This document shows, one piece after another, positions 1 to 46,700 of a stretch of DNA of 64,000 nucleotides; the first letter of the stretch is position 1, and each line of letters starts with the position of its first letter. A program made the position numbers and the translations under genes. Origin of the DNA: Antedon mediterranea. Lineage: Eukaryota; Echinodermata; Crinoidea; Comatulida; Antedonidae. Location of the stretch: the NCBI RefSeq assembly GCF_964355755.1, contig NC_092671.1:9869001-9933000 (forward strand), in the 5' to 3' direction. The notes under the pieces were generated by a model. The model saw only the letters and a list, made by a program, of their open reading frames with translations. It did not search any database and had not been told where the DNA came from.

Positions 1-99
1 TGTATATATTATTAACCAATGTGTTGATACAAAAAGGTAGCAAATATAACCAATGGCAAAACAGAAGGATTTACTTATTCCATGTGTATAGAACAGTAA

Positions 100-394
100 G
101 ACCCTATTTACACTTGCGATTTGGGTCCGGCAATCGATATGTTTAAACATGTCATAAAGTTAGGCTGGGCGGGATGCAGACCTGGGCCAGATGCAGACCT
201 GGGCCGGATGCAGACCTGGGCCGGATGCAGACCTCGACCTCCTCTTGAGGTGGGTCGAGGAGCAGCTTTATGTTTAGGCCAGCATATGCCAATGGCTTGA
301 GAAAATGAAGTAAATGAATCTTCAGGGCTGTATTTTGGAAAGTGTAAACACGTTGGATCGTCCCACGACACAATCGTAAGTGTAAATGGGGTTT
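100..394. mobile_element. MITE with ACCC.ATTTACACTTGCGATT ends
   Basis: Left end at 101 (CCCTATTTACACTTGCGATT) is mirrored at 372-394 (AATCGTAAGTGTAAATGGGG). It contains a GC-rich 17-bp minisatellite. The open frames here (87 and 92 codons) are by-products of the repeat. Confidence 0.7.
164..234 (+). repeat. 17-bp minisatellite, about 4 copies
   Basis: Unit GGGCCGGATGCAGACCT in tandem, much more GC-rich than its surroundings. Confidence 0.9.
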
Positions 395-1435
395 AAGTAA
401 CATCATGGTAACACACCCATAATGCCACACCCATAATGCCTAATTTAAACCAATAAAAAAGTAAACATAAAACATATAATGCAGGAAATATCTTAATTAT
501 CATTGAAAATACTAATTGTATAGTAAGAACTATCAATTAACAATTATTACATTTAAGTATTTACATAATATTCTTTTTTTTTCCTCAGAAAATAAAACAT
601 TTACAAGGTTGTTTTTTTTCTCGCTAAATAATTTGCTCTTTTTTTCAATTTTAAATGGAATGCTCCAACCTGGGAGACTTCTCCACTTTTAAACTGAAAA
701 AAGAACATCACACTTATTTAAAGAGCGGTGTTCTTATGTTGGCGAAAAAATGGTTAGCACGATACACAAACGTGGTAACGTACTAGTAGGAACATAATAG
801 CGCCCTCTATATTTATAAACTGGTTGTTTCCCCAAACAATAAGAACCTCATATTCCCCAATTCTTTCACATTTCTTTCAAACATCACTTTTTTTTTGGAA
901 ATCTTCTCTACTTTCTTCTTGTATTTATTCAGCAAAAGCATTTTCTACTGTAACCACGGCAACTAAACATCCAATAAGAAATCTTTATCCATTATATTTT
1001 CTTTTTTTTTTCTCTCTTTAAAACTTAAAAAGCATGCGATTAAAATTAAAAACATGATCCCAAAATTCTTTTAAAAAAAACCTAAATCCAATACAACCTT
1101 TTCTTTGAAAACTTGATTAAAAAATACTTTTGCTGAAATATTTAAAAGTAAGTGATTAAAAAGTAAAATGTTTCTTAATTTCCATAAAAAGTTCTTTTTT
1201 AGTGAAGTCTCTGAAGTCTTTGTTGATGGCTATACAGCACATCTTTACCAGTACATTATCATGATGATTACCACACGACCTGCTGCTGTGAAATATTCCA
1301 AGCAAATATATCCGGTAAAATTATTCTATATTTTACATCTAGCATCACGTATAGGTCATGGATTGCTATTCATTCATCTACCTCAAAAACCATACTCCGA
1401 AAACCATGCACTTGCTAATCTTTGGCTCAATTCGT

Positions 1436-1738
1436 TTATTTCGTCTTCTGCGATGTCTGGTTTCGTCCGGCAGTCGGAGATCTACGGCCTCCAGGCGACC
1501 TTCGGCTTCCTGGGGAGCTGCGACCGTTTGATCTTCTTTTGTCGTTATCTCTATGGTTGCGTGTAGGTTGTTCGTTCTGGTCACGTTCTTTGTCTTGTTT
1601 TGGATTCGTTGTGGCATTTTTATTAGTTGGTGCGTTCTTTGCAGGTGGGGTATTGGTTTGACCTTGAGTCGGGCAAACTTCCCCTGGTCCTGGCTTCCTT
1701 CGTGCAATTGCAGCGTAGCTGAATTTCTTAGATGCATC
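1436..1738 (-). CDS. LARP4: LARP4 coding exon 14 (C-terminus, stop)
   Basis: Acceptor TTGTTAACGCAG|GATGCATC, stop TAA at 1438-1436. Begins [17 protein letters not shown], matching the conserved vertebrate KLSYAEVCQKPP element, and ends in a very basic Arg/Ser/Gly tail ([15 protein letters not shown]). An AATAAA overlaps the stop and another minus-strand AATAAA lies at 929-924; the true poly(A) site is unknown. Confidence 0.9.
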   Translation of the reverse strand, partial: DASKKFSYAAIARRKPGPGEVCPTQGQTNTPPAKNAPTNKNATTNPKQDKERDQNEQPTRNHRDNDKRRSNGRSSPGSRRSPGGRRSPTAGRNQTSQKTK

Positions 1739-4700
1739 CTGCGTTAACAAATCGACATAAGTGATTATAATAATAATTAATATGTTAATAACAATCAAAA
1801 TTAACAATAAAGTTATATTAACAAGATTTAAAAAAAGTGAAAACATCAGTTAATGCAGTAGAAATTTAAAGACAACAACAGTAAGAAAAAAGTAAATTTT
1901 TCTCCAGAAGACAGTTTAACAACAGAAACGTTAAAACATTTTCAGATCCAGGAGTAGTCTGGAGCTTTATTCCTTAAACTAGTTTGACAGTGTAGACAGA
2001 GCTTCAGAAAACACATAATGTACCGAAAACCGAATTTGCAATGATTTTTCATAAGTAAAATATGTTTGAAATTTATCATATTTGTTAAAAACAGAGAACA
2101 ACACAAACAAATAAAATAGAAATTTAATTATTTTCTCCACGATATACAAAAAAATACTTACACCAGAAGATGCACATTGTATTTCTGTTGCACTTGTTGT
2201 ATCAGCTGTTTCTTTTGCATTGATGTTACTAGTATTACCTTTGGTTGAAGCAGTCACGGGTACAGTCTCCTGTGGTGTAGGTGACATCTGATTACTGGCG
2301 GGCTTGGTAGTTGTTGTAGACGGGGCCTGAGATGATGAAGGTGTTTCATCAGATGAGCTCACAACGGCTTTGCTAGGCTCACTTGCTGCTTGATAGGACT
2401 TTTTTGTTGACTTTTTACTGTGTGGGAAAAGTAGTTATAATAATTAGGAAAACAATTTTTTATCAATGTTTAAAACCATACAATTAGATGTTAATTACCA
2501 AACTGTCCATGCAATTAGATGTAAATGATCAAACTGTAATATATGGTATTGTGACGCTTGACCAACGAATCAGATTTTTCTTTTTTGTAATAATTGAATA
2601 TAAAAAATGTTATAGAATTTGCATGCACCAGTGAATTTTGTCTTTCAGTTTTTGGCGGTATTATTATGTGAATAACTCAAAATCAGCTTTACAAAGAAAG
2701 AAGAAATATAACCTTAAATCCAACCGATGATGCCGTGTTAACATAAACATTTGTTAAGGCCTTATTACTCTACCATGAACACATATTTTTCTGCATCCCT
2801 TTAGATACATTTTCACGAATGCAAAATTTATTTGATGAGATTTTATTACAAGAATTCTGTAGAGTAAGTAACACTTGCACATATAACTTATCAGTAGAAC
2901 AGCGTGTACAAACACCTCCCACACATTGTCACACATTAATAGTACTTGTATAACGATAATTTACCATCATTAGATGTGTGGGAATGAGAACATCAATACA
3001 GAGTTCACCAACAATTAATAAGCTGCTTCAAACGCAAAGTGCACAAATAAATCTTCAAGGCAACATGGATTTTAATTAAAAGTAACCCCAAAATGGATTA
3101 CTATCATTAATAACATCTTAATGTTTAAAAAAATTTTAATTCACCGGTAAAAAATCTGCCACATATCAAGATTTGGAGAGATGTATGGGTTTTGAAATGT
3201 TACAGACAGCATACATAACAAGAATAACTGACGACAATAGGTAGGTGGAGAAAAAGATTTTATAGAGTGGCGACCAAGACCTGGAAAAGTTGAAGACAAG
3301 GAAGAAAAAAAAGAAGGTGGAGATGACATGAAGAGATATTTGAGCAATTTAAACAGGTCGAATGATTGACAAAGGAAATTGAAAATTCTTGAGAAGGGTG
3401 AAATCCAGCAACCACAAAAATGAAAAGAATAAGCGAGAGACCAAGATCAAAAGATAGAAATGGATTGTGCCATGTGATGAGAAGGAAAAACAATAGTCAG
3501 TATATGCCACCAATCTGGTGATTCAAGCGTTGCATCCATTTTAAATAAAGTTGTTATTATTATATTATTATAGTTATGACATGAAAAGGCAGAAGAAGAG
3601 TTGGACGGCCCAAAACAACATGGAGGAGGACAGTGGAAATAGAGAGAAAACCTAGGATGGAGGACATGGAACGAAGAAAAACAAATCGCCGCCAATAGAA
3701 CCAACTGGAAATTGCCAATACAGCCATATGGGCCAGGAGGCTCAAAGAGGTTAGGTAGGTAGTGGTGAGGTCATGTGGTGAAATCAAGTCATTAAGCAAA
3801 GATATCAAAACCATCAAAAGTTAAAAGCTATATACAAACTATACAAACCTTTGTGTATTCGTCGTTTGTGGTGTTATAGGTGTTGATTTGTCAGGCTCTA
3901 TAGAGTTTGTAGGTGACACGCCAGATTTAGATGCAGGAGAGACATCAGATTTATTAGCTTGAGTTGTAGTTGTTGAACTACTTGCGTTCACGGTTTTAGA
4001 ATCTTGAGTTTTAACTGCTTTCTGAAATTTTACATTTAAATATTTTATAAAATCTGATAGAATAAAGACATTACAACATTATGAATGAAGATTTGATGCA
4101 TACTAACTACATTAATGGCTAAATAAGATATAGAGTACAATAAAACTCTAATTTTCTGACTACATCACTACTAAAACTAGAATTTATTAAGATTTTATAG
4201 AGAAATGTGGTTACTTGAAATATAGAAACCGGAAACATTGATAATAATAAAACTTATTTAATTATTTCTATGAATCATTAAACTCTCAATTCTCAAGTGT
4301 TTAATTCCCTTGTGCTGAGATTTAAATTTGAGTATAAAATTTGTGTTTTAATAGTTTGACATTTAAACCTATAATATCCATGCATAATCAATGTTATTTC
4401 ACGGTATTCATTTAACTTCATATTACACTCAAAGACAATCAACATAATTTTTCGTTACTTACGATTCCTTTACAAATATCTGCAAACTTGGTAACAGTTT
4501 CTGCTTCTGTAACCTCTTTTTGTACGACCTCTTTCCCAACTTCGACTCTGGAGTTTTCGGTATGTCCTGGAAGTGGTGGAAAAGAGGAAGGGTCTAAAGA
4601 GGGCGAAGGAATTTTAACAACTGGTTCCTTCTCTTTGGTTTCTCTGAAAGATTTTCGACTGGATGCACTATCATGACGACGTCGAGGGCGCTCGTTGAAA

Positions 4701-7700
4701 GGCAAGCTTCCAGTACTTCTTCTGAAACCAAATCAATTTAAACATTTTAACATGACAAAAAAATAATTCTTATATTATAAAAAATAGAGAAACAGGAACT
4801 GAGGTAAAAACCGCTCATTGTATAATATTCTGATTGTCTATACAATTAGTATCTTTCAAGTATGTTTTGAAAAATTCATTCACAAACAAATTTATTCACA
4901 GTAATACAATACCACTGTTTTTATGATAATTTAAAATATGTGAAACTGCAAACCGTCCGGTGATACTGTATACTGGTAATTAATTTAAGTAATTAATTAA
5001 TAAACATCTGTGACAATGAGAAAAAGTCGCCACAACCAAGATATAAACACATAAGCATACTACCATATTTTATGTAAGCATACTACCATATTTTATGTAA
5101 GCATACTACCATATTTTATGTAAGCATACTACCATATTTTATGTAAGCATACTACCATATGTAAGCATCCTACCATTAGACAACTGGGGTTTTTATGGTA
5201 TGGTTCAAACACAATTTAATAGTAACTCTTTAACATCCTTGGCATGGTACTATGGAAAACCACTGGTTCTCAATTGTACACATATGCAACAGATTATATG
5301 CCTTAGTCTTATATACTAATTTAAACAACACATAATCTAAAACTTCCATATTTCTATGAACTTATTTTTCTTCACGTGCTAAGTGTCCTAGGGGCCCTAT
5401 ATCCACAACCTGCAATCAATGGAACCTCACAACTGCCTCCTACACTCTTCACTGAAAACCTCTTGTATTACACCATTGAGGTCTGATTGCATTCAGCCTT
5501 ATTATATACATGTGGGCATATATCATTAAATCTATATGAAAAGCATTTCTTTAAGTTCTACATGACTTGTCTAACGATCCTCCCGAGTCTCGATTGCAAA
5601 ATATCAACACATAAAGAGCCGCGTGATGTAGTTATACTAAAATAAAGTTAATGAACTTTGGTTTATATGCTAGAATTGTTTTTATCATGTAGTTTCCATT
5701 TCTTATAAGCTATAATATGAATCAATTTCAACCAAGTATTTCTAATAATATTTTTCAAATTAGTACTAGTAGCTTTTACTCCTAATTTCTTTTGCATACA
5801 TATATTAAGTAACGAATAAAAAATGCGAATTCAATGATTTCCTTCTTTGAAGTAAGCTTTTCTAGGTCTTTGGATTTATTTTAGAGTTACATTAATATTC
5901 AGGGAACAAAACTAATCAGGGGACACTTTCCTGTGAAACAAAAAATGGACAAAACATTGTATGTTTTAACGCTACAGTCAACCAACACCTTTTAACATAG
6001 TGTTTTATAGGAGTTCATATTTTATGCTTAAAGCAGAATAGCTATATCATATCAGTTAGATATGTATAGATTTTTCTTATCAATCTCGCAAATTTATCCT
6101 TCACATTTACATATTGCTGGCAGTTGCCTTGCTGTTCAAATGTAAAGTTATCAACAACTGTTTTATTAATATTAATTATTTGTTTGCTTGAGCTTACCTA
6201 TTCATTTGTTGTTGTCCCTTTACATTGTTATAATCCTCGTGATTCCTGGTTCGCGTATGCACGGGTCCATCATTATTCCGTCTGGTGAATCCGTTTTGTT
6301 GATAATCACGTCCTTCATTTGAAAGTTTCCTTTCATTTTTTTGTTCTCGGTCATAGTTCATAGGTCGAGGGTTACTATTAATACTTTGAGCTGTATGGCG
6401 TCGTTCATTTGCTTTATAAATGTTCTCATCAGAAACGCCATGCTCTATTGATCGAAATTCAGGTGTGCTCAATGTTCTGGACTTTGTTTGCCTGATAATT
6501 AATAATAAATGTTATTACAGCATAGCATAATAATAATAAAAAAAATATGAAAAAAACAGAACCAAAGACAATGAAGCTATGGTAAATAATAATGATACTA
6601 CTGTATATTAATAATGATGATGAAAGCAATGATGGACTAATAACTAAGGTTGGTTGGTTCAAATGCAAAGATACGGTACAGTAGCTAGGGTATAGATAAA
6701 TGCCGATTTATGTGGATCCCCAGTCGATAGTGATTTATAGTTCACTTTTGGGGTTCCCTGTTTGTTTGGGTCTATGTTCTTAGCTTGTGTATTTTATTGT
6801 TTTTGTTTTTGTATTGAGAAGTATAAAGGAAATGATCATTAAAACAATGATAGTTATACTGTTTAAATGTTGATGTTAAAATGTATTACATTACAAGATA
6901 AGTGAAAAGTGAAAATCACATTTGGATCTCACAAAACATTATTGAAACAAAAATGCAGCAATTGTGGAATAAAAATAGAATAATTTAAAATATGAAATGA
7001 TTGATGTCCGTTTACTTATTAGAGTGTTATTGTGTTTACGTATCACAACTTTATATCAAAACAAATTGATTGCCATGGGACCAAGTCCAACTAGATATTG
7101 GACGTTCATCTTAATTAATTATTCATTTTGTAATTATTAAAGATAATTATTAGATACTAAATGATATTAATCATAATGTATTTATTATTCTTTTTCCTGC
7201 TACCGATTTGTAAATGTTGACAACTAGCTATTATTTTTGGTTATATTAAAAAAGGTTTATTAGTAAATAAAATCTATTATTAATGTTTAACAATATTTAT
7301 TATTATTAATATAAACAGTTTATTAATAAAAACAATCTGTTATTAATGCTTAACAATATATTATTATTAAAAAGTTTATTAGTAAATATAATCTATTATT
7401 ACTGTTTAACAATATATTTTATTTTTAATATAAACAGTTTATTAGTAAACAGAATATATTATTAAAGCTAACAATATATATAAAATAATGTTGATTATTA
7501 TTATTGTTTAACAATATATATATTATTATTAATATAACTAGTTTATTATTAAACAGAATCTATTATTAAAGCTAACAATATATATTAAAATAATTTTGTT
7601 TATGGTAATAATTATGTAAGATATCCCACCGCACCAGAAATCATTAAACATATATTGTGCCTAGCAAATTATGACTATGATAGGATTCTAACTTGAATTT

Positions 7701-34700: not shown

Positions 34701-37700
34701 TCTGGGGTCACAGACCTCTTGGGTACCGGGAATGCCTTAGCATTAGGATTGAGCGTTGTCGATGCAACCTGCAAAACAATACGACAGGAAATATTTACTT
34801 TGTTAGTAGAAAGAGAAATAACTTCACATACAGAAGAATACCTCTTTTGGAACACTCCTATTCAATGGGCATCCCAATAAGGAGAAATATGTTTATTGTC
34901 TATAAGGACCAAAAGGACAGTGTCCCCATATTAAAGGTTCTACTGTACTAAACCACATTAATAAGGAAACATCCAATATTTATTTTCGCAATTATTTACA
35001 TACAACCTGTCCTATTGGTATATAAGTACCCTAGGCGTTGTTTTCTGTTCTTCTGATGATGAGAATAGTTTCTTGACACATGTCACATTTTAAGGCAGTT
35101 TGCCTATTCATTATGCCTCGCTATAGTTATTTTAACTGTACAACAAAACAAATCAAAATATTGGTCCCACTTAACCGATGAATAATTTTAGAGCCTGGGA
35201 TTTCTTTCTTTATTAAACAGCTGAATGAGTGGTATTAGTTTTAAAATTACCTAAATGATTGTAGTAATTGAGTATACCCAGATCAATAATATAAACGTTT
35301 TTTTTTTTTTAAATCACGATACTGTAGGTTAAAAAATTATTTCATTTGCTTTTATTTCAGAATTTTATGCACAAACGAATGTTAATCATTCATATCAAAA
35401 TATATTCTATTAAGAAATTCTAGTATGTTTAGTAGGATTCAGTCAAGTATGTTAATCATCAGCAAGCTTTAATGGTGTATAGCAGAAATGAGTAATTGTT
35501 GACAAGACAATAAGAATTCAATTTAATAGATATTTTCGCTAACGCAATCAATCATCAACATCAAGTTAGTGGGTCTATTCTCTCAGATTATCCTTCAAAG
35601 ACGTCATGGGACAGGAAAGTAAGACTAGATATTTTATGCACAGTTTTTTATGACCACATAATAATGCATTTGTGTTCTCTAAACAGCCATTTAATATGTG
35701 TGCGGTGCAATACTATCTAATACTACTACAGTATATGATACATTTTGCAGCTGACCTTTTCATTTTAACCTTTAGTCAGGTCTTAGCGAAACAGAAGTGT
35801 TGTTTTTCTAGTTCATGATAAATCTAGCCTCTGCTATTCAATATCACTTAAAACCTACTCATAGCTTTAATGATTTCGCCAATATGCTACATAAATCTAC
35901 ATAAATCTATACGTATATATATACTGATATCATATAATATTAATCAATTTAATCTAAAAAAATCCTATTCATTTTTATTCATTACATGACTGAACTAACA
36001 AAATATACAGCAAACTGTGATATGAATAACTGAATAAGCAAACATGCGGTTTCATCATTTTTATTTTAAAATTTGTTTATTCATAAATCATAGTAAATTG
36101 CATGACGGGTTCCTGTACAAATGTGGTTTAGTTTCAATTTATTATTATTACCGTACTGACTCGGGTATAAGCCCACCCCCCTTGAACATGAAATCACGTC
36201 AAGTTTGGGGGTTGGGCTTATACCCGAGGATCCAAAAATGCAGATCGTCAAAAACAGCACATGTACACTGTGTATTCCACCATGCGAGCGAGCGCCCTCA
36301 CGTGTACGACGTTGCCTCTACTAAATACACGAGGTGTACAGTACCGGACAGAATTATTGCAGATTTTGAACGCATTCAACGCATTGTTAAAGTGTTGACA
36401 ATGCGTTGAAACTGCGTTGTCCGTTGGCGTTGAAAGTGTTGAGTTCGTTGAACTGTTTATTCAACCAACACAATGTGTTGCGTTGAGTTTGCGTTGAAAT
36501 AACAATCGTATGTTATTTACAGATTGCCAGTGTGTATTAGTAGTAGTAGTAATAGTATAAAATACAGTATTACAAATAATGAAGAAAACAAACATAATGT
36601 GTATTTTTCCGCGGAAACTAATAATAAATTACACAAGGCTAGGCCTACTACTAACGTCGTAACGAGTAGGCCTGTGTGTATATGAGCTACGTCTGCCCTC
36701 GCATCTACAGTAGCGGTCATGTCCTCAATTACTGTGTGCCTACCGTATATTAAAACTGGAGTAGTAAATACCCATGTTAAGGCGGCGGTGAATCATGGAG
36801 GTTAGGCCACATCGTAATTAATTATTTCCAAACTAAAAACTTCGCAGTACTACATTTCTCAATTGATTGTAAAAACTACGTAGCCTATGCCAGTCGTGTG
36901 GAAGGCAACAATACACCAACATAATTTTACGATCTTTGGTCGTGTCTTTTTCACGCATGCTTTTCGTGACGTACAGTATGGGGGAACGAACTGATCGTCG
37001 AAAGGTGAAGAGTTCATTCATTATGAAATAACGCGTAATTGCAAGAAAAAATCGTTTAGTTTTATTATCCCTAAAATTATCATATATTATATTATAAATT
37101 AATTAATTAATTATTGTGACGCCTAATGTAACCCATGCAGAGAAAAGCGTTAAATAGAATAACCAAGAAATAGGAATGACTAATCTGATGCAAGACAATA
37201 AGGCAATGTTAGGCGTTTTCTTTAAAATCAAAACCTTATTGTTCCTTATAATAACACAATTGTATGAATGGGATGGGAGTTTTTGCGAAAGATTTTTGTG
37301 GACACATTCGAAAGAAATTTCATGATGAAAACACCTTGCACTACTAGATCCAGAATTATACGTTTACGCGACCGTGGTAACACTGTCAAACAGATACAGG
37401 AAACGCTCAACGATGATGGCATAAAGGTACACGACACAACGATTCGGCGAATTTTGGAACGATTCAATAGCAATTCGACGATTGCCGATAAAGCTCGCAC
37501 TGGCCGGCCCAGTAAATTTAGAGACGAACACTTGGCAATTATAAACAATGAAATGGATGCCAACTCAGAATTGAATTCAAGTAAGTTGCGGGATATATTG
37601 GAAGAGAAAACAGGCTGTACATTTTCAGACAGATCCGTAAGACGACGACGTAGGAGACTGGGATGGGTTTGCGAAGGTGCAAGATATTGCCAATTAATAA

Positions 37701-40700
37701 GAGTAAAGAATCGGATTGATCGATTTGATTTCGCAGTGAAATGTATACGAAATGCCGAACAGTTCAAACGTGTTATCTTTACAGACGAATGTACAATTGA
37801 ACTTGATAATCACGCTAGAATTACATTTAGGAAGCTGCATGAACAACCGAAATTGAAACCTAGGGCCAAACATCCAACAAAAGTACATGTATGGGCGGGA
37901 ATTTCTACAGAGGGAGCGACGCCAATAATCATATTCGACGGGATAATGCGGAAAGAATTTTATGTGGACACGATTTTAGATCAAGTATTACGTCCGTATG
38001 TTTCAGCTAAGTTCACAGATAACAAATTCCGTTTCATGCAGGACAACGATCCCAAACATACTTCGCGTTACGCTGCCGATTATTTCACAAGAGAGAACAT
38101 ATATTGGTGGAAAACCCCGGCGGAGTCACCAGACCTTAATCCCATCGAGCTTGTGTGGCATCAACTTAAAGATTTTTTACGAAAGGTAATTCAATTCATC
38201 TTTTATTGGTCTAATTCTCATAATGTAAGTAAAAATCGGTGTTCATACACTGCAGTTTAAAAACAATGTTTAAAACATTTTAATTGTCTACGAAATTGTT
38301 TATAATTATTCTGTATAACGTAATTTTACGATTGTATTTTATAGGAATGGAAACCGATGGTGAAGGCTGAACTGGTTGCAGGCATCAATCAGTTTTGGAA
38401 AACAAAGATGAACCGTAAACTGTGCAGGAAATATGTATCCCATCTGAGAATCGTCGTACCTGCTGTTATTAGATGCAAGGGACACGCGACGGGTTACTAG
38501 TGCCGATTTATTTCGAGTCTCATTTATCTCGCGTTTTTAATATTGTGTTTAGTTTAACGAATGTAATATATAATGTTTAGTTGCCATTTATCTCTGGAAA
38601 TTACGCTTAGTTAAGTTTTATGCTGTACATATTTACTGTGGTATGATCCATATTTTAATGTGTACTGTATTATTAAATTCCTTATTTCAATCATGCTATT
38701 ATATATATTATATATTAAAGTATACAACAAAAAGCCAAACTATAATTGCAATTGATTTTATTTATTTATATATCAAAGACCTAGAAAACAAACGAAAGGA
38801 ATAAAAACAAAAAGCCAAACTATAATTGCAATTGATTTTATTTATTTATATATCAAAGACATAGAAAACTATAATTACAATTTAATTTTATTTATAAATC
38901 AAAGACATAGAAAACAAACGAAAGCAATAAAAACAAAGGCTAACAATGGCAAAGAATAAAAAATAGTACAATTTAAATACATTACAATTACAATATAAGT
39001 TAAATCTAGGCCTACTCTCGTTGGTGTCTCTGTTTAAATTTAATTTGTCTACGTGCTGAATCAATTGACTTAAGGCATTCTTTCCATCTAATATCAATTT
39101 CTGCAACAGGGGCAGGCGCTAGGTTAAACACTTCAGTCTTAATGTAGTCCAGTCTAGTCGCGTCGAGTCGAGCAGCGCCGTTTCGTCCTGACGTATTGCA
39201 ATTGCGTCTTTCTTCTTCAGTAAAGAAGTATTCAGTCAATAGTCGTGCCATCTTTAGTCGGTCGTCAGTAAAGCTAAGTAGTCGTCGTCGTAAGTCCTGT
39301 GGTATTTGATGTGTATCATTGTCATTGTTCAATGGTGGTTGGTGTTGTGCTGCTTGTGGCTGTTGTCTGATGTTAGTTTGTTGTTGTAAAGTTGCCATAA
39401 TGTCAGATACCTGTTGATGTAGTGTTGCGATTTCGTTTGTTTTCTGGTCCAGTAGTTCTCGTAGCTGTTTGTTTTCGTCCTTTATGTCTTTTAGTTGGTC
39501 TTCCGTACGTCCCAGTCTAAGTTCAAGTCGGTCTTGGCGACGCTCCATCTCATTCTTATCATCCCATCTGTCACTCGCAAATGTCATTTCCTTGTCGTAG
39601 TCGTTGGTCAGTTCGTCTAGTGTCTGGTCTGCGTTGTGGAGGTCGACGTTGTCGGTGTCATAGATCATGAATCTGTTCTCAAATTCTTCGTCAGAGTCAG
39701 CAGTTGGTGGTAGCGGCGGATGAGTTACTTCTATAACTGTCGCAGCCTACATAAAATATAAACAAAAGAAACTTCATTAATCGACCTGCAAAAATTACGT
39801 AATTAATAAGGGACACATGTACAGTTATGGTTTTGTTTTTTTGTTTTTTTTGGTTTGGTTTCAAGGTATTAAAGATGTATTGTTTCCCCAAAACCATGAA
39901 AAATTAAAATTAATAAAATCTGACTATGAATGGGTTATTTTATAGTTTCAATAAAGTTACTCACTTCGGCAAAAAAACCCAAAACAATTTGACTATTTTT
40001 TGCTTTAAATTACACATGTTAAGGTAAATACATTTTTTCAAACAAATTTTTGGTAAAATCTATGCGACATTAACATTGTGATAAGTAATCTAATACAATG
40101 TCAACAGAATTTAAGCCTACCTTCTTTGTAACATCGACAGTACTCTGACGGCGTCTTCTTTTTGGTGCAGGTTCTGGTATGTTATCTACATTATCGCCAT
40201 CACCATCATCACCATTGTCGTCATCATCACTATTGTCGCCATCATCATCATTGTCGCCATCACCATCAATACCATCGTCATCTTTGTCAACTCGTTGGTC
40301 GTCTGCCTCGGTCATAAATTCGTATGGGATCGTTTCCCCCGTTTCTGCTTTTACCTGTATCAGAAAAAAATATTTAGTTTAAACATTTGCCATACATTTA
40401 AAAAACGATACATTGGTTGGGTCAAGTATTTTAACTAACAATAAATTTAACAATATCATTTGTGGAAATATGTAAAACAATTTAATTAAAAGGTGACTTA
40501 TTCCTTAACACTTTTTAAAAAGATGCTCGACTTTGAACTAAAATATCATAAAACAAAAGTGAATGAACCTATAACGAAATAAATAAACCATAGATAATTA
40601 AGTATTTTAACTAACAATAAATTTAATTTAAAACGGGCAACAATAGGCCCCTATCATTTTTGAAAATATGTAAAACAATTTAATTAAAAAAGCGACCCCT

Positions 40701-43700
40701 TCCTTAACATTTTTAAAAGAGATGATCGCCGTTTGAACTAAATATCATAAAGCCAAAAAAATATGAATGTCGATTACTCACCTCTGATGCAAATATATCA
40801 TTAAACTTAACAGCAACTACTGGTCCTCTCAATCCTGACGCAAGTACTCGTTGGACCAGGTCTCCTCTTTGTAACTTTTTAGGGTCGCCTGTCTCCGGAA
40901 AGTGTTCGCGGTTGATCTTACATTGTCGTTTCTTCATTGGAAGTCTTACGTACTGTAATTTGACGTGGCTTACAGAATTATAGCCAGTCCAGGATACTAC
41001 AACGGCATCGGGATAAACTCCCTTAACAGTTCCTCGTAACCAAATACCAGAATCTGGGTCAATAGCTTGTACAGCTTGTCCGCGTTTAAACATTTTGTAA
41101 CAGTAATATAATATAATTCGATAATGATCAGCAGCAACTAAGATTGGAATGGTGGAAAAACTGAGTATTGCTAAGGTTTTTATGCTTATTTCCATGAATT
41201 GAAATATTTATATTGTTTTTTTACAATAACTGACCGTCACAAAAGCCATTGTTAAAACTAGAGCGGCGACGACTTGAAACGCGTTACCGATAACAGCGGT
41301 TTCACTATTGATGTCACTGACGCATTGTTGAACGTTTCATCAAAGCTCAACGACTTCAACGTGTTGAACGCTATTGAATTCCATTGTCTAACGTATTCAA
41401 TGAACGATACGCGAACGCTCAACGGGTTCAACACATTCAACGCGCTTGTTTTTAAACATAATGTTTTATTGGATAATTATTTATTTATTTTGGTATACAA
41501 GATAAGAGGAAATAAAGGCCGGTATACAAACATTAAAAATTCCCAGCCAATATTAAGTAACACATAAATGATAGTAGTATAATATACAATCTACCTTATT
41601 TGATTTAGTAATTAAAAACAAACATTTCTAATGAAATAACATGCCTTGTGTAAGCAAAATACCCTTTTAAATACAAAATACAGTGTATTCTAATATAACA
41701 TTTGACAGTTCATCAATCAATATTGTTTGTATTGTTTTCGGCCACAAGTAGCGATCAGGGAACGCGAGACCATGTTCGTTGACTCTCTTCCTCATTTGCT
41801 TCCACTTTTAAGCGCAGTTTCTGCTGCCAAAAAAATACGGTATATATACGTCCGGTATTAAAAAAATACCGTATAAAATACGGTATTTTCTTGGCAGCAG
41901 AAACAGGGCCTTATATGAGTATCAGTCAATGTTTATTATTATTTATGATGCAGTCGTATTTTGAAAATAAGGAGATAATTCATGTTTTTGATCTCGGGAG
42001 TGGAGGAGGATTGAGTGTTTTTGAGTTTTATAAATTAAAGTTATGAGTTCAACCAAATGTGTTTATTGGTGGTTTTGGTGCTATTAGCTACTGAGTTGTT
42101 CACCGGAAAATTTAAGGGTGGGTTACTATTTTCAGATTCCTAATTTAAGATTAGTAATAGTAACCCCCCTTCTAATAGTAACCCACCCTAAAAAACAATC
42201 AAATAATAGTAACCCATAAATACGTAAAAAGTTATTAAGAAAAGAAACACCGTTCCGTTGCTTTATCCCTACCATAGACCTACCATATCATTAACCATAA
42301 CATTATTATAAATTAACATTCACGCCTAATGTAACCCACGAAGAAGAATAATTAGAATAACAAAAACAAAACACCGTTAGTTTTATTAATATATTTATAG
42401 GTCTATCTCTTAAATTTAATATACATTACAACTACAATGTTATACGGTAAGTCTACGGTGCCATACCATATTATTTACGCCTACAGGTAGGTGTAACCCA
42501 CAAATATTAGAATAACAAAACAATTCAGAATAAAGAATTATTCTGATGCAAGACAATATAGTATAGGTTAGGCGTTTTCTTTTACCATATTATTGTTTCT
42601 TGTTAATAATTACTTTGGCCTGCAACTGTATGAATGGGATGGGAGTTGCGAGAATATGCGAGAGAACAGTCAACATTTCAAACACTTACAGTGTACCGGA
42701 TAGAGTGGAGCGCATTGTTTGATGCTTTTCAAAACGCTTAACGTTTTCAACGCGTTCAACGCTATGGAAATCAATTGTTTAACGTCGTCAATGAACGGTC
42801 AACGGGTTCAACACATTCAACGCGCTCTATTGTTAACGTATTCAAAACGCTTTGTTGTACTTAAAAATGTAAATGTAATGTTGTTCGATTTATATATTGG
42901 TTCAAAGGCGTCGACACGTCGCATTTTTTAGTTCTTTAAAATTACATGGGACCAATTACAAAATAAAAACCAAAATAGAGAAACATTATTTTAACTTTAT
43001 TTCTTGAATCCTCTTGAATCTCGAACAGCTAAAAAATGTAGGCCTAAATAAAATTAGTTACTTCGTCGTCTCATTAACGATCGTTAAAATACGTCATAAC
43101 ACACGTGGTGTTTTTCTTGAGGAACCGGAAGCCGGAGTGGCGGCCTCGTGTGTTGATTTTTCAGTTTACCAGGTTGTTTGATTTTACGACGTGAGATCGT
43201 GTTTTTCTCGTCAGACCTACAGTACAGTGACTGTTAGTGTTAGGCTTAGCATCGACCTTATTATTCGATGTTTTCCTTCACTAAACACTGGGAAATAAAT
43301 TAACACTGAGGATCACTGTGTGTTTTATTTGGTAACTGTCTGTTCAATACATAAAATATATAATATGAAGCTATATTTTGTTTTATATTAAAATATCTGG
43401 TAGTGACTGCCGATAGGTATTTTGCCTGTTGTTGTTACTGATCGTTCAGGCGTGCAATCGGCCAGTCAAGTGCTGCAGCAGCTAGCGTTGAAATAACTAA
43501 TTGTTTACTTGACATGCTGATAATGACTTTCGTTGAATAAACAACTAAACGTTGAAAGCCGTTCAACGCAACGCAAACACAACGCAACGACAACGTGTTG
43601 AATGCGTTGGGATTTTTGCAATAATTCTGTCCTGTACTGTAGAGTGTCGGAAAATTAAGCTTATAGTTCGTGTAATTTATCGTAGAATATTTTATTTTAA

Positions 43701-46700
43701 ACATCAATTGAACAAGAATTTATCAAGCAGAAAAGCAAGTATACAATGTTCGTTAAATAGAAATGTACCAAAGAAATTTAATAAGCTTGTTTATGGCAGC
43801 CGATACCAAATAGTGGTTTGCCGTTTTGGCGACTTGTAGCGTCATGTGTGAAGCGATCTTCGACCGCTATGGAGTGTAAACAAAACAGGACCGCTAGGCC
43901 TCATATGGCCTAGCGTATATTAGCCTAGCTTGGTTATGATCAAAGGTAGGTGTATTCGGTGTATGGACGTCGCCAAATACAAAATAATGTATTACGACAC
44001 ACACTGTAGATCTTCAAATTAATGGGTGGGCTTATACCCGAGTGCCTCATTTTTCATGAAAATTAGTCAAAAGTCGGGGGTGGGCTTATACCCGAGTATG
44101 GGCTTATACCCGCGTCAGTACGGTAATCAGAGAAGTTTGTACACACGTTAACTGTAAGTTGCTTGGTTTTCATTTAATGTTATTAATGTTATTATATTAA
44201 TATTACTTTTCTATTATTAATATAATGACTGCATTCAACATTTAAGCAGGGTACAGTTTTGCGTAATTCCTTTATTTGTAATGATTTAGTCAGAATTAAC
44301 TGCATCTACAGTTCTGACTTCTGTATAGTGCTGAATAAACCATTTATTTCAATAAAATCATTCTTAGACTGACCGCATTTCTGCTAAATTTGTGCTCTCA
44401 ACTAACCGAATAAATTAGTTGGTAAATGACAAAAACCTTAACGTATTACCCAAAATGCAATGTGATCGTTCAATTGTTCACGATTCTACAGTACAGCTGT
44501 CAATCAAATTTACCGTTATTTCGTGGTGAAGCTAAAAGTTGCAGTGATAACCGGTAAATGGCGTTGAATATTTTATAAACTATTTGTGTCAGAATACAAG
44601 CAATTTGTGCTTTCAGCGAGTTAATATTTTTTTTATGATATCCCAGAAATGACAGAAAAAATATGTTGGCATATCTGAAGAAATAAAAGCCATTATTTAA
44701 ACAACCACACAACTGTAAAAAAAAAATTCCAATGTACTAATATTTTTTTTTATTATATCCCAGAAATGACAGAAATAATATGTTGGCATACTGTATATGA
44801 AGAAATAAAAGCCATTATTTAAACAACCACACAGCTGTAAAAAAAAATTCCAATGTACCAAGACAAGTGATAGTACTTATAATTACTTTTCGAGGTATAT
44901 CTCGCTCTTCGAGGAGAAAGGCTATTGTCGGTTTATCCAGGTAAGCTAGGCACAAAATAGACAAATAATAATACTAACAAATTAATCTCCTCACCATGTC
45001 ATATTTTTCACCACTTTGTTATTTTCAATAATGAAAATAGAAGATTAAATTTTACACTTCTTTGCATTATTAAATAAAGATTGAAAGTAGAAATAAAAAA
45101 AACAATCTTCAGGAAAGTGACGTAGAACAAGTGAGCAATAAAATCATGACATTGAAATTTTTGACGTCAATTGTGTCAGGTTATTGTGTATTAGTTATGA
45201 GTTAAAAGATTACTCAAAATAATGCTTGAATATTCTACACAATGTCATAGTTTAATCAATTCCAATGTCATTAGCAAAAAAATCAAAGCCGTGATATGAT
45301 GAAAGCACTGAAAAATAATGCACATGCTACAAGAAACTCTATTAAGGAAACACTTCAAGGACCAATGTCCTTCTAATAAAAGAATCTCCTGAACATGGAT
45401 TAGGCCTTAAAACCTACACTTTTATTTCCCCTTGTCGTTTCATATGAAATTTTCCCCTTAATTGTGCGTTCCAAAGGTGAGGTTCTAGTCTACAGTACAT
45501 GCAATAAAAAAAAATTAATACTGAATACCAAATACTGAAGACTGTTTTCTTTGAAAAACCCCGCAATTACTATTCTCAAAATCATAGGGATTTTCCCAGA
45601 AGATATTAATGCGATTTACTGTGAGCTAAAAAACCCTGAATTGGAATTGTGAAATACTTCAAGGTACATAAATCATAACATTGTATGTGCTTTCTTTTAA
45701 TACCAAGTACATACTGGTACTGTATATAAATTATCCTCACATGATCCACCATTATGTGAACTCATCATAATCCGAGAATTTATTAATTTCATTTCATCTC
45801 TCTTTCAGAATTGACATCCATAAAATATTATAAACTGTCTAAAAAATAATTTATATCCGTATATCCTATATATCCTACCCCCTACTTAATGTCTGATGTC
45901 TCATAATAACGTTAAATAAACACAGTAAAAATCAGAAACGTGAAATGTTTAATCAGAAACGTGAAATGTTTATCGCCGATTTAATGCGATTGATAAGAAG
46001 AACCTTGGAAACACACAATATAAACAAAACATGACAAAAATAATGATGTAAAAATAACTAAGAACACATGGTAACAGGAATTATCGCTGCAAAATTATCA
46101 AAACCAAGAAAATTAAAAGTTCTATTGTAAACTACCAATGTTGAATGACAGAGCAATATGTTAGGTATTGTCACATAACATCATTTTATATCACCATGAC
46201 ATGTTACATTTCTAAAAAATAAATAAGTGTACTAATAAAATTGAGCATTTTACTTTAAATTAATAAAATGTCTATTCAGATAAGTACAGTACTGTACATG
46301 TGCCAAACACTATAAAATAGATTCCTTTTTGTGGCAGTGTGTCCTATGGGATATATTTATATTCACATAATAAAGTGTTTATTTGTAAAGGTATTACTGT
46401 GTAATCATTGTTAACGTCTCCGTCATGAGCTGGAATACGTGTACTGTACATAATAGTTGATAACAATAACACAAAAGCCCTGTATATAAAATACAATTAC
46501 GATATATTTTTGGAAATAGAAATATAATCTATGGTGATAAATTTGTGGATAAAATGTGGTATATAAACTTATACCGCATTTTGTGTAGCATTTTCGGGAA
46601 CCAATAAAAAATACTGTATGTCTTTGACCTATGAGTTTGACCTATAACACGAAGAGTTTAATTTTCTGCATTGCGTCATTAAAACTAACTCATAATACGA

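Follow-up and report, generated by a model that had tools for sequence, protein, structure and literature searches.

A two-gene Tc1-type transposon lineage that pairs a DD34E transposase with a BEN-domain gene in the crinoid Antedon mediterranea

The stretch of DNA analysed here (the window, 64,000 nucleotides of Antedon mediterranea, positions 9,869,001 to 9,933,000 of contig NC_092671.1 in assembly GCF_964355755.1) harbors a complete two-gene Tc1-type transposable element of 7,301 bp at 36339..43639 on the forward strand, which together with the copies sharing its ends we refer to as family F1. The element is bounded by a left terminal inverted repeat (TIR) of 23 bp at 36339..36361 (+), starting with CAGTACCGG, and a right TIR of 23 bp at 43617..43639 (-), starting with CAGTACAGG, both identified by inverted-repeat comparison and by pattern matches in the genome, and TA target-site duplications lie directly outside them at 36337..36338 and 43640..43641. 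The original prediction, made from the sequence alone, had described matching 23-base ends with TA on both outer sides; the inverted ends and the TA dinucleotides are indeed present, the TIRs being identical at 22/23 positions and the arms of 25 nt that include the TA 96% complementary. Across the genome searched (354 Mb, 18 contigs), a 23-base pattern for both F1 ends matched 124 places with up to 2 mismatches (64 forward and 60 reverse), as against 0 for the reversed control. When the 100-bp flanks were joined with a single TA, the resulting empty site matched 40/40 scored places over 200/200 bases at 97-99% identity (206 first-look candidates); the 7,301 bp therefore inserted cleanly into a dispersed repeat, in agreement with the boundaries first proposed for a 7.3-kb transposon. 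The flanks at 36239-36338 and 43642-43741 are themselves part of this high-copy repeat.

On the forward strand of the element lies the transposase gene, for which we predict two exons. Exon 1 (37268..38185, +) was recognised as an open reading frame (ORF) with the Pfam domains HTH_Tnp_Tc3_2, a helix-turn-helix (HTH) domain (34.8 bits vs a cut-off of 31.5), and DDE_3 (E 2e-15), and exon 2, which includes the stop codon (38345..38500, +), from a homologous continuation that is in frame and without intron in another element of the genome, L003 (loci of the genome are numbered in this way throughout). The intron, at 38186-38344, has GT..AG borders, and the product comprises 357 aa counted from the first ATG, with an alternative inner ATG at 37322. 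The catalytic triad is D173, D259, and E294; 34 residues separate D259 from E294, which makes it a DD34E triad, and a search of the PDB returned Sleeping Beauty as the best solved match (E 8e-18). The apparently intact DD34E transposase of the original prediction thus stands as an open DD34E frame, to which the intron, not mentioned there, has to be added. Ends beginning CAGT are typical of Tc1, and by its DD34E triad within DDE_3, its N-terminal Tc3-type HTH, and its TA duplication the element is classified from its sequence as Tc1-type, although the typical but nonessential trait of a single ORF in ~1.3 kb is replaced here by two genes in elements of 7.3, 6.9, and 5.5 kb.

The second, accessory gene is found on the opposite strand, convergent with the transposase gene, and is predicted to consist of three exons with lengths divisible by three, separated by GT-AG introns and encoding 426 aa followed by a stop; like that of the transposase, its splice pattern in F1 is a prediction. 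Exon 1 (40782..41093, -) encodes 104 aa of uncertain family, weakly Tudor/Agenet-like, and has a 38% identical counterpart in L002; exon 2 (40121..40354, -), placed by ORF and splice reading, encodes 78 aa that include an acidic stretch and, after it, a basic KRRRR patch; and exon 3 with the stop codon (39012..39746, -) encodes 244 aa with an apparent coiled coil followed by a BEN domain (residues 347-416), the latter assigned by Pfam and by a match to BEND3. The reading frame first proposed for this three-exon gene was confirmed, and the suggestion that its product binds DNA or chromatin gained from the BEN domain (PF10523), which exceeds the Pfam cut-off of 23.2 bits (31.5 bits, E 2.1e-7). 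The corresponding domain of family F2, described below, also exceeds it, at 25.3 bits vs 23.2. The best solved match of the BEN regions is BEND3 in F1 (E 3e-4), F2 (8.5e-5), and F3 (0.02), and an RR pair in the C-terminal helix region is kept in 6/6 BEN sequences compared, as in the CRR of BEND3. With regard to exon 1, the version in L002 matched Agenet in Pfam at E 0.085 and 13.8 bits, under the cut-off of 27, nothing was listed by Pfam for the F1 version, a two-sequence profile of the exon gave no match in the PDB, and its structural model is beta-rich but of low confidence (pLDDT 52), too poor to use. A search of viral_contigs with the BEN exon and the transposase gave no close viral relative, and a PHROGs search gave no useful match. 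A 98-bp fold-back at 41812-41909 (arms of 32 nt, 88% complementary) is also contained in the element and is possibly a small nested insertion.

Most F1 copies are devoid of genes. Among the 100 of 124 end matches that were listed, on which the pair counts rest, 43 facing pairs were found, one of 7,301 bp (the window element) and 42 of 1.7-3.9 kb, most of them ~2.05 kb. No aligned part of either gene was seen in the 22 short copies fetched from these 42 (L012-L033). The 20 copies of ~2 kb (L014-L033) have TA on both sides in 20/20 cases and a mean identity of 99.1% over 190 pairs, and 19 of the 20 share an internal junction joining element positions 898|6120, the remaining one, L031, having 800|6413 instead; the segment missing in the common derivatives, 37237..42457 of the window, is the one holding both genes. 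Against the window element, the 2-kb majority reaches identities of 98.7% and 99.6% over the outer 230 bp and of 89.1% elsewhere outside the internal array, and because of this interior divergence the derivatives must have come from a sister element and not from the window copy. The sole other near-full-length F1 relative found is L001 (C2:23.56 Mb), which corresponds to positions 1-5348 of the element; its genes follow in the same order, but their frames are broken. The original prediction had looked to further copies of the 7.3-kb unit with the same ends and TA duplications; short copies of this kind are plentiful, whereas a second F1 copy with both genes was found in partial form only. Two side observations concern the F1 ends and derivatives. 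At C3:37376778-37377125, F1 left ends occur three times in one orientation at spacings of 163 and 162 bp, which suggests that a transposon end has become a short tandem array, and at C6:16377001-16379064 and 16384697-16386760, two 100% identical 2,064-bp derivatives lie 5.6 kb apart in opposite orientation, with different adjoining bases.

The gene pair recurs in elements with other ends. The second family, F2, is represented by L003:2015-7559, a 5.5-kb element with ends CAGTACTGACTACA, TA flanks, and open frames for a transposase of 346 aa and for accessory pieces of 135 and 231 aa, and the third, F3, by L002:1387-8311, a 6.9-kb element with ends CAGTACAGCTAAWAA, TA flanks, sequences related to both accessory exon 1 and the BEN exon, and a transposase with one in-frame stop. 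Transposase identities are 42% between F1 and F2, 56% between F1 and F3, and 46% between F2 and F3. Among L001-L011, a terminal-repeat script recovered CAGTAC ends facing each other in L002, L003, and L007; the remaining eight gave no such pair. By our own grouping, a protein search with the BEN exon gave 15 distinct places and a transposase search 17, the weaker transposase pieces being fetched only in part. A transposase piece lies beside the BEN match at 9/15 BEN places (the window, L001-L007, and L045) and not at 5/15 (L008-L011 and L034), C10:10.32 Mb not having been fetched. Pfam DDE_3 listed 8 genome places, of which 7/8 adjoin a BEN relative; at the exception, L060, a transposase was found without BEN within the 3.8 kb fetched. 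No BEN was detected beside the transposase piece of L044, and in L043 the accessory gene is represented, joined to such a piece, by a relative of exon 1 only. By our arithmetic, ~0.004 adjacencies within 3 kb between BEN and transposase search places would be expected by chance. The genes are arranged tail to tail in the window, L001, L002, L003, L004, L007, L045, and L046. In L009, a BEN fragment is attached to an F1 end, and L008 was rejected as a paired copy, its BEN piece lying 5.4 kb from a 2-kb-type F1 derivative and having the look of a separate fragment.

The population structure of F1 is repeated in F2. With up to 3 mismatches, F2 ends were found at 66 places forming 25 facing pairs, 21 of them of 1.57-1.86 kb, and seven fetched short copies align with L003 over 145-178 columns at one end (84-88% identity) and 282-285 at the other (73-75%), though the interiors of the short F2 copies are unrelated. 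L047 (6.4 kb, F2 ends) was discarded as a two-gene copy since it matches F2 at the ends only. A fourth set of ends, F4, is represented by the gene-less copy L048 and by L011, in which one F4-like end and a CTACG cluster go with an open BEN frame of 257 aa; as no transposase could be recognised across 9 kb, a two-gene form of F4 is not established. L048 (6.3 kb, F4 ends) was likewise rejected as a copy of the gene pair, its length being due to an apparent non-LTR retrotransposon: L048:634-4446 is an F4 derivative that holds, by eye, such an insertion, with a 990-residue endonuclease/reverse-transcriptase-like frame.

The accessory gene also has a low ratio of nonsynonymous to synonymous substitution (dN/dS), below 0.5 in every comparison made (0.20-0.48), values which are given without significance test, are based on small numbers of changes, and are pushed towards 1 by the decay of several partners. 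The F1 gene of the window gave 0.32 against L001 (359 codons), and its exon 3 gave 0.37 against L009 and 0.20 against L010 (192 codons); the F2 gene gave 0.35 between L003 and L046 (341 codons); and in F3 the comparison of L002 with L007 gave 0.40 for the BEN exon (278 codons) and 0.475 for exon 1, the latter giving 0.40 between L002 and L043. Values for the transposase were 0.52 (L001), 0.41 (F2), 0.95 (L007), and 0.71 (L043). Together, the movement of the whole unit, as recorded by the empty site, the recurrence of the pair with other ends and with transposases 42-56% identical, the BEN domain, and the dN/dS values bear out the compound lineage originally put forward, and we regard the existence of a two-gene Tc1 lineage pairing a transposase with a BEN gene as practically certain. 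Among the copies fetched, none combines the same ends with the transposase alone; BEN genes without recognisable transposase do occur (L010, L011, and L034), and the single repeat found for the 7.3-kb unit, L001, is partial, which qualifies the original claim in part and does not overturn it.

Just inside the TIRs of the window element are arrays of a short CpG-containing motif. The left subterminal array (36377..36496) contains 8 CAACG/CGTTG and the right one (43486..43609) contains 9, numbers reached by 0/1000 dinucleotide shuffles in each case (shuffle means 1.2 left and 0.9 right), although these and the following shuffle counts overstate the significance, as the motifs were picked from the same ends that were later tested. 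Two internal arrays of 4 CAACG each are also present, one at 41348..41442, ~255 bp upstream of the accessory ATG and a possible promoter or operator, and the other at 42748..42822, a diverged duplicate of the first that is kept in the 2-kb derivatives; in tests on the AACG counts of 41290-41450 and 42720-42870, 1/1000 shuffles reached the observed number for each. In F3 the motif is CCACG, with 10 and 17 occurrences at the two ends (0/1000 shuffles each), and the same-strand spacings pile up at 10, 20, 30, and 40 bp (12, 8, 7, and 6 pairs). In F2, ACGCG occurs 4 and 4 times, numbers reached by 10 and 6 of 1000 shuffles, and in the gene-less F4 copy L048, 9/9 CTACGCG lie within the terminal 300 bp, a count made without shuffle comparison. 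The array motif C-N-A-C-G thus differs by family (CAACG in F1, CCACG in F3, and CTACG in F4) and is weak in F2. All 6/6 occurrences of CCCACGCG in F3 are within the terminal 300 bp. This sequence is the reported motif of BEND3 (PMC10206803; given as CCCACGCGC in PMC10407929). Since the F3 arrays include the motif of BEND3, the protein with which the BEN regions have their best solved match, the BEN protein is the likely reader of the arrays.

We consider it probable, with substantial room for doubt, that the window element is an autonomous-type member of a two-gene Tc1 (DD34E) cut-and-paste lineage in which the BEN protein, bound to the arrays, assists or regulates transposition. According to this model, the BEN protein would oligomerise on the C-N-A-C-G arrays just inside both ends, and the array-bound protein would assist or regulate the pairing and cleavage of the ends by the transposase; on arrays upstream of genes it may also adjust their expression. 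Each family would carry its own version of the motif (CAACG, CCACG, or CTACG), and the short copies with ends and arrays would rely on proteins supplied from elsewhere. That it is the BEN protein and not the transposase that reads the arrays, that it oligomerises, and that it acts in transposition are the parts of the model that we infer. Full-length BANP oligomerises via its coiled coil and C-terminal domain, which is needed to choose unmethylated tandem CpG motifs, and an arginine of its helix 5 is the CpG reader (PMC11472053). An oligomerising reader of one short CpG motif per helical turn would fit the arrays.

A number of observations weigh against this model. With respect to the protein, the F3 BEN exon is unlisted by Pfam and is linked to F1 by homology (E 3e-16), its match to BEND3 is weak (E 0.02), the coiled coil is suggested by weak profile matches alone, and a single-sequence model of the BEN region has five helices (pLDDT 64) without a significant Foldseek match, the BEND3 domain ranking third at E 6.9. 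BEND3 itself is reported to have a relatively low affinity for its motif (PMC10407929). With respect to the arrays, apart from the choice of motifs from the ends tested, the enrichment in F2 is modest, and the case for conservation of the second internal array in the derivatives is weak (78/81 positions agree with the 2-kb majority; p = 0.04 in comparison with the rest). The 10-bp phasing is seen in F3 only, and four motifs in a row with this phasing are rare genome-wide, with 14 matches spread over 5 places, of which three are F3 ends, as against 12 for the reversed control, so that the raw count is not enriched and only the location is telling. The identical ends of the derivatives could reflect gene conversion rather than constraint. 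As for the pairing, BEN genes exist without transposase, as mentioned above, both genes are on one strand in L005 and L006, and F4 was not seen with both genes.

A more ambitious version of the same idea would make the BEN protein a dedicated factor for end recognition and licensing, with oligomers at helical-turn spacing that sense unmethylated ends and with the variable base of the motif serving as a specificity code between families. CpG methylation is reported to repel both BEND3 and oligomeric BANP, and so the element could check in this way that its ends are unmethylated before it moves. The isolated BANP BEN domain is methylation-insensitive (PMC10206803), and any methylation sensing would therefore rest on oligomers. 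We put this version forward as a tentative possibility.

Of the rival explanations, the one that survives best keeps the two-gene lineage but lets the transposase itself bind the arrays, as in Tc1 ends of the direct-repeat type, with the BEN protein acting on host chromatin, on the target site or as an insulator, or on expression. Tc1 transposases bind their own ends and N-terminal HTH domains are present in this transposase, both of which speak for such a division of labor, and the weak, under-cut-off Agenet likeness of L002 exon 1 would suit a chromatin reader. However, motifs of 5-8 bp at 10-bp steps in F3 seem short for a protein with paired HTH domains, the F3 motif equals that of BEND3, and in F1 an array is also found upstream of the accessory gene, and we regard transposase binding of the arrays as rather unlikely. 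The same internal F1 array lends itself to another reading, in which the BEN protein is a repressor that acts on the arrays and on their internal promoter copies and so holds down the activity of its own element and of the derivatives, and BEND3 is indeed described as a repressor working with PRC2 (PMC10206803, PMC11472053); the arrays are, however, kept in dozens of near-identical gene-less copies, which is more easily explained if they are needed for movement, and to our mind a repressor is improbable. Passenger capture, i.e. a host BEN gene trapped in one element and hitch-hiking without function for it, could draw on the BEN genes that occur at other places in the genome with no transposase of the two-gene lineage recognised beside them, but the pair recurs in three families with different ends and transposases 42-56% identical and the accessory gene has dN/dS values of 0.20-0.48, on which grounds we rejected it as very improbable. 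Finally, nested insertions or chance juxtaposition misread as a single element, which a genome rich in nested repeats might invite, can be given virtually no credence in view of the empty site spanning the full 7,301 bp, the same gene order across 5.3 kb of L001, and the recurring pairing.

The model of a BEN protein that binds the arrays and assists transposition can be compared with known systems. Tc1 elements are generally ~1,300 bp with a single ORF, the three-ORF TBE and Tec elements of ciliates being exceptions (PMC7325037). The lineage shares with Tc1 and Sleeping Beauty the DD34E triad, the Tc3-type HTH, the TA duplication, and the CAGT ends, as well as the Sleeping Beauty match of its transposase, but differs in that its two-gene elements are 5.5-7.3 kb long and contain, in addition to the transposase, a spliced BEN gene as well as arrays of a CpG motif. 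TBE and Tec are likewise multi-ORF DD34E elements, and TBE has a zinc-finger/kinase ORF and a reverse-oriented 22-kD ORF, its ORFs being under purifying selection (PMC7325037, PMC4724952); on the other hand, Tec has a recombinase and TBE has telomeric-repeat ends, whereas F1 has a BEN protein and CAGTAC ends, and no recombinase was found among the four open frames scanned with Pfam. Functionally, F1 would most resemble En/Spm, which we used as a model. There, the subterminal repeats are the binding sites of a second protein, TNPA, and the proteins also act in trans for non-autonomous copies in which the cis sequences are retained, with motifs that differ between families, although En/Spm belongs to another superfamily with CACTA ends and, in the element of that paper, a 3-bp duplication (PMC2613891), in contrast to the CAGTAC ends and 2-bp TA of F1. 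BEND3 and BANP share the BEN domain with the accessory protein, and BEND3 provides the closest solved structure and the motif found in F3, but both are host regulators, and BEND3 has four BEN domains (PMC11472053), whereas a single one was detected in the element protein, which further has an apparent coiled coil and, at its N-terminus, a domain of uncertain family.

Among the papers shown by searches of an open-access library, no title or abstract start describes a BEN-bearing DNA transposon, Repbase, Dfam, and subscription papers lying outside this scope. The accessible part of PMC5704228 has BEN in its reference list only, the retrieved text of PMC11075544 describes zebrafish DUF4806/BEN genes without a transposon link, and bracovirus BEN genes are reported in Lepidoptera (PMC4574769). 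Given that Tc1 elements are described as simple one-gene transposons, a lineage that keeps a second DNA-binding gene throughout diverged families would be an unusual multi-component Tc1 system outside the ciliates and would offer a clean natural series for following how a motif and the protein that binds it change together. A further question is the direction of descent, from transposons to some animal BEN genes or the other way round, and the combination of arrays and paired genes makes the claim of binding directly testable in vitro.

BEN genes were also encountered in other contexts. L034 (C5:1315376-1315582) contains an open BEN frame of 220 aa that shares 47% identity with the F2 accessory protein; no transposase was matched within 7.5 kb, and the frame may be a relic or possibly a host gene. 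At L035, a BEN ORF lies near an ORF that looks DDE-transposase-like by eye, though not like Tc1 (3747-4385 and 6967-7599), and the locus has a distant match to the N-terminal exon of the F2 accessory gene. Lastly, four places, L039-L042 (C3:17.49, C11:13.69, C4:12.84, and C5:15.00 Mb), share a second dispersed repeat of more than 5 kb, 97-99% identical among them and with boundaries beyond the stretch fetched, which has its own BEN ORF beside a repetitive charged ORF and no match to the transposases of the two-gene lineage.

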